Program-made: the position numbers and the translations under genes
Notes under the pieces: model-generated
Seen by the model: only the letters and a program-made list of their open reading frames with translations
The model's database searches: none
What the model was told of the DNA's origin: nothing
Assembly (NCBI RefSeq): GCF_000585495.1
Contig: NZ_CP007264.1
Coordinates: 682,001 to 746,000 of the forward strand
DNA from: Thermococcus nautili
GTDB taxonomy: Archaea; Methanobacteriota_B; Thermococci; Thermococcales; Thermococcaceae
DNA: 64,000 nucleotides
Reading direction: 5' to 3'
Shown here: positions 15,766-27,208 of the stretch, piece after piece
How positions within the stretch are numbered: position 1 is the stretch's first letter
How the letters are laid out: every line of letters begins with the position of its first letter

Positions 15766-16956
15766 ATGATAATCCGCGGTGACGAGCCGGAGCAGATTAG
15801 GCTCCTCAGGAAGCTCTACAAGCCCGGCAACTACTTCATGCAGGGCAACGAGGCCGTAGCTTACGGCGCTCTGTTTGCGGGCTGTCGATTCTACGCTGGC
15901 TACCCGATAACCCCGTCGAGCGAGATAGCTGAAACCATGGCGCGCGAACTGCCGAAGCTCGGTGGCTACTACCTCCAGATGGAGGACGAAATTGGAAGCA
16001 TAGCGGCGATGATAGGCGCCTCCTGGACGGGCTTCAAGGTCATGACGGCAACGGCCGGTCCGGGCTTCTCGCTGATGCAGGAAAACCTTGGCTACGCCGT
16101 AATGACCGAGACTCCGCTCGTTCTGGTCGACGTCCAGAGGAGCGGGCCTTCAACCGGCCAGGCCACGAAGGGAGCACAGGGAGACTTCTTCCAGGCCAGA
16201 TGGGGAACGCACGGCGACCACCCGATTGTTGCCGTCTCTCCAACGAGCGGGCAAGACGCTTTCTGGGAAATCATCAGGGCTTTCAACATCGCCGAGAGGC
16301 TCAGAACTCCGGTGGTGTTCCTCTTCGACGGTGTTCTCGCCCACACTCGCGAGCTGGTGAAGATTCCGAGTGTGGACGAGGTGGAGATAACCTACCGTAA
16401 GCTTCCCCAGAACGAGGAGGAAGCCAAGCTTCCCTTCGGCGACCCGCACGGAGACGGCGTTCCGCCGATGCCCCTCTTCGGCCACGGCTACTTCACCCAC
16501 GTGACAGGCTCGACCCACAAGGAGAACGGCCTGCGCGATGTTTACACGCCGGAAGTCCACGACAGGCTCGTCAGGAGAATCCACCGGAAGATAGAGAAGA
16601 ATAGGCACGTCTACGAGAAGTACGAGGAGCACTTTACCGATGATGCCGAAATACTCGTCGTCAGCTGGGGTGTTACGGCGAGACCTGCCCTCGGAGCCGT
16701 TCTAAAGGCGAGGGAAGAGGGAATAAAGGTCGGCCTCTTCGTGCCGAAGACTGTTCACCCGTTCCCTGGAGAGAGAATGAGGGAGCTCGGAAAGCGCGTT
16801 AGGGCAATACTCGTCCCGGAGATGAACCTCGGCCAGATGATTCTTGAAGTTCAGCGCTACGTCAACGACGACGTTCTGCTCAAGGGCGTTAACAAGATTG
16901 GTGGCGTTCCCCTGACCGTTGAGGAAATCCTGCGCGAGATAAGGGGTGTTGCCTGA
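15766..16956 (+). CDS. korA: 2-oxoglutarate:ferredoxin oxidoreductase alpha subunit
   Basis: 396 residues: QGNEAVAYGALFAGCRFYAGYPITPSSE is the pyrimidine-binding start of the family, followed by MEDEIGSIAAMIGASW and ATAGPGFSLMQENLGYA. The C-terminal domain (from about 300) ends VPEMNLGQM. With korB it makes the thiamine diphosphate site that decarboxylates 2-oxoglutarate to succinyl-CoA. The ATG at 15766 follows GGTGGTGA. The substrate is assigned by similarity, and paralogues 3 kb away show that specificity differs between the sets. Confidence 0.9.
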   Translation: MIIRGDEPEQIRLLRKLYKPGNYFMQGNEAVAYGALFAGCRFYAGYPITPSSEIAETMARELPKLGGYYLQMEDEIGSIAAMIGASWTGFKVMTATAGPGFSLMQENLGYAVMTETPLVLVDVQRSGPSTGQATKGAQGDFFQARWGTHGDHPIVAVSPTSGQDAFWEIIRAFNIAERLRTPVVFLFDGVLAHTRELVKIPSVDEVEITYRKLPQNEEEAKLPFGDPHGDGVPPMPLFGHGYFTHVTGSTHKENGLRDVYTPEVHDRLVRRIHRKIEKNRHVYEKYEEHFTDDAEILVVSWGVTARPALGAVLKAREEGIKVGLFVPKTVHPFPGERMRELGKRVRAILVPEMNLGQMILEVQRYVNDDVLLKGVNKIGGVPLTVEEILREIRGVA

Positions 16957-23881: not shown

Positions 23882-24100
23882 TCAAACCACCGGGATAAGA
23901 AAACCCCCACCGCTGATAAGGGTTTCCCAGGTGGCAGTTATTTCGATTCTTTGAGTCTTATTGCAACTCATTTGGATAGTGAAAAGGCTCCATGAGCTGT
24001 TGTGCTTTCAATTCTCTTCGAGTCTTATTGCAACCTGTCCACAAGGGACGCCTTATCCAGCTCTATGTTCCTTTCAATTCTCCTCGAGTCTTATTGCAAC

Positions 24101-24137
24101 ATTACCGCCGAGGAAGCCTACAACCTCGTCCTCCAGT
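24101..24137 (-). repeat. Duplicated CRISPR spacer, copy 1
   Basis: This 37-base spacer, beginning ATTACCGCCGAGGAAGCC on the plus strand, is identical to the one at 25570-25606. It is the third spacer from the old end. Confidence 0.9.
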
Positions 24138-24633
24138 CTTTCAATTCTCCTCGAGTCTTATTGCAACTGAGCTTCGCAACGAAGGTTTCGTTACCGTGCT
24201 CCTTCTTTCAATTCTCCTCGAGTCTTATTGCAACTCGCGGGTCCTCCTTCTTTGCCTTCTTCCGTTTCTGCTTTCAATTCTCCTCGAGTCTTATTGCAAC
24301 TCGTTGGCAAGCGGAAGAACAAAGCAGGCTTGTGGTCTTTCAATTCTCCTCGAGTCTTATTGCAACGAACATGGGAGAGTTTTTCCAGCTCGGGCTTTTC
24401 TTCCCTTTCAATTCTCCTCGAGTCTTATTGCAACCGAGGCGTGCGGCACGGGAGCGGTAGCGGTAACCCCAGCTTTCAATTCTCCTCGAGTCTTATTGCA
24501 ACTTCCTCCTTCTGCAGGCCGATACCGCACCCCTTATCCTTTCAATTCTCCTCGAGTCTTATTGCAACACGCTCGAACAGCACATAAAAGCGATAGCTGA
24601 CGCCTTTCAATTCTCCTCGAGTCTTATTGCAAC

Positions 24634-24669
24634 GTTGGTCGGGGGTTCAAATCCCCTCCCCGGCTCCAG
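24634..24669 (-). other. CRISPR spacer resembling the 3' end of a tRNA gene
   Basis: On the plus strand the 36-base spacer contains GGGGGTTCAAATCCCCT, a T-arm with the GGTTCAAATCC loop consensus. It then has CCCCGGC, a single T and CCA, matching an acceptor strand, discriminator and CCA end. The crRNA is the opposite strand and so would be complementary to such a tRNA. Confidence 0.8.
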
Positions 24670-25569
24670 CTTTCAATTCTCCTCGAGTCTTATTGCAACG
24701 ACAGAACCGTCCTTTTCGACTGAAATCACGTTATCGCTTTCAATTCTCCTCGAGTCTTATTGCAACCTTTCATTCCGGTCCTTGCACGAGCTTACAACGA
24801 ACCTTTCAATTCTCCTCGAGTCTTATTGCAACGAGCACCGTGCTTTACGGGGGGGACGCCGTATGAGGACTTTCAATTCTCCTCGAGTCTTATTGCAACC
24901 GTCTCAGCCTTCAACTCCTGAATTAAACTCGCGATACTTTCAATTCTCCTCGAGTCTTATTGCAACAAAAGCGGGATTGGGGGCACACATTACGCGAAAA
25001 TCGCTTTCAATTCTCCTCGAGTCTTATTGCAACATGACCGAAGGTAAGATAGATTACGACGCTCAGATTTCTTTCAATTCTCCTCGAGTCTTATTGCAAC
25101 AGTATATTTCGCGTTTGAAGGCCGAAGCGGCTGAGGACTTTCAATTCTCCTCGAGTCTTATTGCAACCTCCGCTCCAGGTCGGCAGAGCGTTGATGCCGT
25201 CCACTTTCAATTCTCCTCGAGTCTTATTGCAACTAAACTAAGTAGCCCCCCACAAACAGGGCAACTACCCTTTCAATTCTCCTCGAGTCTTATTGCAACG
25301 AACTCTGACCATGTTGCCGCTGATGTCATAGACTTCTCTTTCAATTCTCCTCGAGTCTTATTGCAACCTTCTCCTTCTTATAACTCTCCTCCAGGCCCAC
25401 CTTATCTTTCAATTCTCCTCGAGTCTTATTGCAACTTTTCTTTCCTTTGGAGAGCTCACGGATTGGGTACCCTTTCAATTCTCCTCGAGTCTTATTGCAA
25501 CCGAGCTAAAGCGCGAACTCTACGAAACAATACTCAAATCTTTCAATTCTCCTCGAGTCTTATTGCAAC

Positions 25570-25606
25570 ATTACCGCCGAGGAAGCCTACAACCTCGTCC
25601 TCCAGT
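25570..25606 (-). repeat. Duplicated CRISPR spacer, copy 2
   Basis: Identical over all 37 bases to 24101-24137. Its neighbours differ from those of copy 1, so only this one unit is repeated. Confidence 0.9.
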
Positions 25607-26770
25607 CTTTCAATTCTCCTCGAGTCTTATTGCAACTCCTTGCGGTTGAGCTCCTCGACAGGCTGAAAGAAATCTTTCAATTCTCCTCGAGTCTTATTGC
25701 AACGAAATTCAGAGAGATAGAAAAAGCCGCATGGCAACACTTTCAATTCTCCTCGAGTCTTATTGCAACCCAGGTGGTGGCCTATGAGTTAGTGAAGACT
25801 CTCACCTTTCAATTCTCCTCGAGTCTTATTGCAACCTGAAGGAGGAAGAGCGGAAGGCCTTGCACACGGCGACTTTCAATTCTCCTCGAGTCTTATTGCA
25901 ACTATGCCTTTAACTCTGGAGTCTCATTTAAGGACGTTCCTTTCAATTCTCCTCGAGTCTTATTGCAACGCCCACCTTCCAGCTCGGGAGCGTAACCTTA
26001 AACGGCTTTCAATTCTCCTCGAGTCTTATTGCAACTTACCAACACCCTCCGCCTGCTCCTCAAGCGCCTTCGCTTTCAATTCTCCTCGAGTCTTATTGCA
26101 ACTCAAGCGCTGGAGGGTGTGATATGGCTGAGAACGCGTCTTTCAATTCTCCTCGAGTCTTATTGCAACACTCTCCTCGACATCATTAGACTGCTCAATA
26201 AAGTCACTTTCAATTCTCCTCGAGTCTTATTGCAACTTCCCCCGAAATCCCCCGGTGAAATTTGGTGAAATCCTTTCAATTCTCCTCGAGTCTTATTGCA
26301 ACTACCTCGAAACTCAAGCAGGGGATTCTGAAAAAGTACTTTCAATTCTCCTCGAGTCTTATTGCAACATGGCTAAGCCAAAGTATGTGTATCGGTTTAA
26401 GTTTGCTTTCAATTCTCCTCGAGTCTTATTGCAACTTCAGCACGTAGCGATTAAGCGCGTTGAGCTTTACGACTTTCAATTCTCCTCGAGTCTTATTGCA
26501 ACACACGAGGGTGAGGGTGAACGGCTACGAGGTTCTAAGCTTTCAATTCTCCTCGAGTCTTATTGCAACCTTCAGCGCGCTTTTTCAGCCTATCAAAACT
26601 TTCTGACTTTCAATTCTCCTCGAGTCTTATTGCAACTGAGCTTTTTTCGTGGCTAAAGGGCTGGATTTTCAAGCTTTCAATTCTCCTCGAGTCTTATTGC
26701 AACACAGGTTAAGCCACAGGCGAGAACATCAGGAAAGGAACTTTCAATTCTCCTCGAGTCTTATTGCAAC

Positions 26771-27208
26771 AGGGCGCGAAACTCGTCCTTTTGCCCAACG
26801 AAGAAAGAAGGATTACCGGATATTTAAGACTTTCTGGGGATTTCCCAAAAAAGAGCCACCTGGGCCCATGAATTAAGACTCCCGAAGGAAAATAGGAGCG
26901 TGTAGAGGTTCAACGGGCACTCAAAAACTTCTCCTCCATCGGGGATAATTAGTTTTCAGAGCCAGGATAAGCCAACAAATTTAAGACAAACCCCACTAAG
27001 AAGGTTAAACTCAGAAAGGCATGATTTCGCTAGGTTTTGGTTAAATCCATAGGCTCCCCGGGCTTTGTTCAGCATTTCGAAGAAAATTTGTTACATTAAA
27101 TAGCATAAAGTATTACAAGAGGCAACACCAATGAAAAAGCAAAAATCAATTCCCAAACTCCACAGGACAGATTAAAACTGAAATGGGAGCAAGACATGCC
27201 TACACTTC
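26771..27208 (-). promoter_or_regulatory. CRISPR leader and AT-rich gene-free stretch
   Basis: About 440 bases between the newest repeat and maf hold no convincing gene. On the minus strand a TATA-like CTTAAATATCC (around 26819-26829) lies about 50-60 bases before the first repeat, with a purine-rich stretch upstream. This is the expected place for the array promoter and the integration signals. The part from 26900 to 27200 is AT-rich, with several TTAA-containing elements, and shows nothing else I can name. Confidence 0.6.

Follow-up and report, generated by a model that had tools for sequence, protein, structure and literature searches.

The window analysed here is a stretch of 64,000 nucleotides from the chromosome of Thermococcus nautili 30-1 (positions 682,001-746,000), read on the forward strand. 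It contains a CRISPR array at 24005..26770 on the minus strand, in which 42 repeats alternate with 41 spacers, each 35-38 nt long. A degenerate repeat lies to the left of the array, at about 23948-23967, and a leader of about 70 nt (26771..26837, minus strand), 82-93% conserved in the three T. nautili arrays, is found next to the last repeat at the right. Since the right flanks of the three arrays are conserved and their left flanks consist of decayed repeats, the leader was placed to the right of the array and the crRNA was assigned to the minus strand. Numbered from the leader-distal end, at the lower coordinates, spacer 10 occupies positions 24634..24669 (minus strand), corresponding to chromosomal coordinates 706,634-706,669 of T. 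nautili 30-1. Its sequence, GTTGGTCGGGGGTTCAAATCCCCTCCCCGGCTCCAG, is 36 nt long and is flanked on both sides by perfect 30-nt repeats that were recognised as CRISPR-DR6 in the Rfam search, the leader-distal one at 24604..24633 and the leader-proximal one at 24670..24699, both on the minus strand. Its location between identical repeats, within an array provided with a leader, identifies it as a CRISPR spacer. The mature crRNA would be the minus strand, carrying the ATTGAAAG handle.

Direct reading of the plus strand of spacer 10 revealed the 3′ part of a tRNA. The first bases correspond to tRNA positions 42-48 (GTTGGTC), with the variable loop, and they are followed by a T-arm at 24641..24657 (plus strand; GGGGG-UUCAAAU-CCCCU), in which positions 49-53 (GGGGG) are paired with positions 61-65 (CCCCU) with a single G-U pair and enclose the T-loop UUCAAAU. 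The 7-nt 3′ acceptor strand CCCCGGC, the discriminator U73 and an encoded CCA occupy positions 24658..24668 (plus strand), and one further base, a G at 24669, lies past the tRNA end. T-arm pairing, T-loop, acceptor strand, discriminator and CCA are thus all present in register, as in the 3′ fragment of a tRNA gene. From the xxGGTC variable loop, the CCCCGGC acceptor strand and U73, we infer that the donor tRNA was probably Thr-like.

The best ungapped match of spacer 10 to the host tRNA genes (44 detected) reached 29/36, as compared with a maximum of 26 matches in 3,000 shuffles of the spacer (mean 20.3, sd 1.0) and with no more than 24 for the other 102 spacers examined in three T. nautili arrays. 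Words of the T-arm consensus are common and short, and a chance or T-loop-consensus resemblance might have been expected on these grounds. However, such a resemblance is refuted by the shuffle test, and it leaves unaccounted for both the presence in register of stem pairing, loop, acceptor strand, U73 and CCA and the agreement of the spacer with a genuine tRNA-Thr at 33/36 positions, so that we regard its probability as negligible. The tRNA resemblance of spacer 10 is far beyond chance. The identification of the spacer as the 3′ end of a tRNA gene, made in an earlier note on this DNA, is therefore confirmed by the elements in register and by the shuffle control, and a paper from 2023 names it likewise. 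In that paper, spacer 10 was reported as the first tRNA-gene fragment in a CRISPR array, at chromosomal positions 706,451-706,668 of T. nautili 30-1 (PMC9897764, RNA Biol 2023, doi 10.1080/15476286.2023.2172370). The GtRNAdb pseudogene 'tRNA-Leu-CAA-2-1' described there is the identical object, as it shares the genome (1,976,356 bp), the coordinates and the spacer, and it cautions that CRISPR spacers turn up as tRNA genes in the output of tRNA finders. The spacer itself is thus already known, and what is added here are the controls on its orientation, PAM, host mismatches and provenance. Spacers matching tRNAs or rRNAs are rare but not unknown, since 7 spacers with aspecific matches, e.g. to positions within rRNAs or tRNAs, were dropped from a large spacer survey, in which 72,099 spacers with target hits then remained (PMC8482600).

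The PAM was deduced from 20 mapped spacers of the three arrays, with protospacers in pT26-2, pEXT9a and Thermococcus genomes; in this set one spacer duplicates another, and one match looks like a spacer in another array. An NGG was observed at the plus-strand 3′ side in 14 of them, equivalent to CCN 5′ in the crRNA sense. Together with the right-hand leader in the three arrays, this PAM side supports the antisense relation of the crRNA to the tRNA that was proposed in the earlier note. The opposite array direction, suggested by the PAM of the first few protospacers, was rejected on the basis of the 20 pooled spacers and of the leader comparison. Three distinct spacers of the array (W2/W24, W20 and W32, at window positions 24101, 25300 and 26103) have protospacers with CCN at the non-canonical end and look as if they had been inserted in reverse; in the other array examined, no such reversal is seen for most of the mapped spacers. 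An identical 37-nt spacer occurs twice in the array, at window positions 24101-24137 and 25570-25606, with differing neighbours. The spacer at 25300-25337 shows an 88% match over 34 nt to positions 1,462,251-1,462,284 of the T. nautili chromosome, possibly within a resident element related to its target.

The levels of divergence between spacer 10 and the tRNAs of its own host were determined for 44 genes gathered by Rfam search (46 are annotated in T. nautili), and a pattern search covered the whole chromosome. All 44 detected genes differed from the spacer at 7 or more of the 36 positions. The nearest were tRNA-Leu(caa) and tRNA-Leu(tag), with 7 mismatches each, and the tRNA-Thr genes showed 8-9. 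When the 28-nt core of the spacer was searched in the T. nautili genome allowing up to 3 mismatches, no match was obtained outside the spacer itself. In none of the 44 detected genes was an NGG present at the canonical side; tRNA-Arg(gcg) and tRNA-Met(cat), with 8 mismatches each, carry CCN at the other, non-canonical side. Spacer 10 thus lacks both the near-perfect chromosomal match and the PAM at host tRNAs that would mark a self-targeting spacer, and it did not originate in the host's own tRNAs. These data do not bear out the expectation that the spacer would also match the host's own tRNA gene. Because there is no close host tRNA match, the puzzle that had been raised along with it, of escape by PAM or repeat-flank rules or else of tolerated self-targeting, does not arise. 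The host would be spared by the divergence of its tRNA genes at 7 or more positions and by their lack of an NGG flank (CCN on the crRNA-like strand).

Regarding the effectors, no match to RAMP-family proteins (PF03787) was found in the host genome, and the search for the Cas10 palm (PF22335) returned a single weak match, to an mCpol protein of 135 aa; the genome also contains two genes for Cas6. Since RAMP proteins were not found and the sole Cas10-palm match is the 135-aa mCpol, a type III RNA-cutting attack on the tRNA is not expected, contrary to the suggestion that such a complex might touch it. From the PAM and from knowledge of Thermococcales, the crRNAs of this host probably act with type I complexes, and the crRNA of spacer 10 would guide a type I DNA-cutting complex to the donor DNA. 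The 135-aa mCpol (minimal CRISPR polymerase; PF18182, E=5e-23) is encoded directly after a CARF-like 337-aa protein (L226:461-1902, chromosome about 887,392-888,833). In this genome, where type III RAMP proteins were not found, the two were read as a stand-alone mCpol signalling pair.

To get insight into the donor, we searched for the spacer sequence in successively larger collections. No match to 35 nt of spacer 10 at up to 3 mismatches was found in 61 genus genomes, and the exact 28-mer was absent from 84,980 GTDB species genomes and from IMG/VR. No protospacer of spacer 10 was found in the genus and phylum genomes, the GTDB representatives or IMG/VR, and the PAM given above derives from its sister spacers. 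Among 115 phylum genomes the closest 28-mers had 2/28 mismatches, and the loci that were read turned out to be tRNA-Cys genes, which differ strongly in the variable loop. One such match (2/28 mismatches, genome G060) proved to be a normal tRNA-Cys. The tRNA-Cys genes of Thermococcus were rejected as the donor, as they contain CCCCGGCTCCA or a near variant and differ in the variable loop, with 29-30/36 positions in agreement. Spacer 10 does not derive from any Thermococcales tRNA in the 115 genomes.

These results bear directly on the origin initially proposed for the spacer, namely an element that integrates into a host tRNA gene and whose attP or att site supplied the spacer, with the consequence that the spacer also matches this tRNA. 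The pT26-2 family of elements makes use of tRNA 3′ ends, with att sites that extend over the T-arm (PMC6972569). Moreover, pT26-2 is targeted by another spacer of the same array, others match Thermococcus genomes, and T. nautili has a likely element between tRNA-His copies. However, an att site must match its target tRNA, and nothing closer than 2/28 mismatches, at tRNA-Cys genes, was present in the 115 phylum genomes; the tRNA-Thr of the host, as the plausible isotype, differs at 8-9 positions. Neither an identical host tRNA 3′ end nor an element bounded distally by a further copy was found, and no Thermococcales genome or integrated element searched within the 115 phylum genomes carries the spacer sequence. 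Spacer 10 resembles the att fragments that Thermococcales elements (pT26-2 family, pTN3/TKV4, PYG1) leave in the chromosome upon integration and other mobile-element activity, in being a partial tRNA 3′ end with a T-arm. Unlike them, it is a CRISPR spacer and not an att site: it is accompanied neither by an integrase nor by a full copy as partner, and the host has no tRNA of identical sequence. We consider this origin improbable in the form in which it was proposed. An attachment-site origin is possible if the element in question targets a tRNA from beyond the Thermococcales sampled. A donor outside the host was assigned in the 2023 paper, which named the tRNA-Thr(UGU) gene of a myovirus on the basis of 29/32 bases in agreement with that of Myoviridae sp. 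ctU5h13 (PMC9897764), and phage tRNAs identical to the first 21 nt of spacer 10 were indeed found in 55 contigs. Such identity is nevertheless reached as background by tRNA 3′ fragments in general: 36-mers taken from the non-viral tRNA-Thr genes of the host match phage records at 85-88%, and the best value for spacer 10 is 87.5%, so that an identity of about 85-88% cannot name the class of the donor. Phage-encoded tRNA genes have the T-arm in common with spacer 10, and in many cases also its first 21 nt, but they leave the acceptor half unmatched, and the best viral contig agrees at 31/36 positions. No match to a degenerate T-arm plus acceptor pattern was obtained in viral contigs, and the matches to half-spacer patterns there were discarded as generic phage tRNAs or as a non-tRNA chance match.

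The same degenerate pattern was found in eleven bacterial contigs, chiefly from Actinomycetota and two from Nitrospirota, and in all nine that were resolved by ARAGORN the match was a tRNA-Thr(CGU). The best matches overall were the tRNA-Thr(CGU) genes of two Acidimicrobiia-type MAGs, which agree with the whole spacer at 33/36 and 32/36 positions. They agree at 31/32 with the 32-nt core (spacer bases 4-35, taken as equivalent to the published 32-bp match). Because they adjoin a sigma-factor-like gene and a second shared gene, as judged from translations, these tRNA genes are chromosomal. A chromosomal gene is therefore closer to spacer 10 than the myoviral one, and we regard the myovirus as a possible but somewhat improbable donor; the viral assignment appears weaker than stated, and tRNA-Thr(CGU) seems a nearer relative than tRNA-Thr(UGU). 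The donor might instead have been the chromosome of a different bacterium or archaeon of the vent, with acquisition by DNA uptake or by vesicle transfer. This would agree with the bacterial nature of the best match anywhere, a tRNA-Thr(CGU) whose sigma-factor-like neighbour is conserved in two MAGs, and with the finding that T. nautili vesicles carry DNA and transfer it among related Thermococcales (PMC3968343). However, the bacterial match is inexact, the exact 28-mer being absent from the 84,980 species genomes, and the degenerate pattern matches only bacteria, chiefly Actinomycetota, of types that are not typical of Thermococcus habitats; taken as a rival in its own right, this donor is unlikely.

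Altogether, we consider it quite probable that spacer 10 is an ordinary CRISPR memory spacer and that it derives from a foreign tRNA gene, of which it covers the 3′ part. Against this reading stands the lack of an exact protospacer, and of a virus carrying the tRNA of spacer 10, in the collections searched. Because neighbouring spacers target plasmids such as pT26-2, the donor DNA would most likely be an invading virus or plasmid with a tRNA gene, or an attachment site derived from a tRNA, that is missing from the databases. Within the reading as a memory spacer, the chances of a virus- or plasmid-encoded tRNA gene as the donor are evenly balanced, chromosomal DNA of another organism of the vent community comes well below it, and an attachment-site fragment is less probable still. 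The more specific proposal that a Thermococcales virus or plasmid absent from the databases has a tRNA gene or att, Thr-like and of non-Thermococcal type, and that CRISPR sampled it there, is tentative and falls somewhat short of an even chance. If this were true, spacer 10 would be the only trace of a mobile element bringing a foreign tRNA into hyperthermophilic archaea, and the host tRNAs would escape through sequence divergence and the missing PAM. At present the spacer represents a curiosity already in print that does not target its own host, and its interest is limited. If found, the donor would reveal whether viruses of Thermococcales have tRNAs of their own, and in what way the tRNA genes of the host are avoided by CRISPR upon acquisition of a spacer of this kind. 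Since unrelated tRNA 3′ ends agree equally well, naming the donor of a spacer from about 90% tRNA identity is unsafe.

Some additional observations were made on tRNA-like and repeat-like sequences. A second tRNA-like spacer, in the array of another Thermococcus (G032, L184:1488-1533), contains GGTTCGAGTCC, and its flanks form no T-stem, so that its resemblance is probably due to chance. The likely tRNA-His integrated element of T. nautili is located at chromosomal positions 1,017,117-1,042,473 (L110, L111), where the intact tRNA-His gene and a 25-nt copy of its 3′ end are about 25 kb apart; the interval between them contains two tyrosine-integrase ORFs (PF00589) and, by translation, an MCM-like helicase and type I restriction genes. 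Finally, pTN3, a virus-like element of the same strain, contains at positions 16347-16456 (L190:1501-1610) at least one CRISPR-repeat-like unit with 3 mismatches. This unit sits between TNaP3-29 and TNaP3-28 with further decayed copies adjoining, and was read as the remnant of a mini-array.
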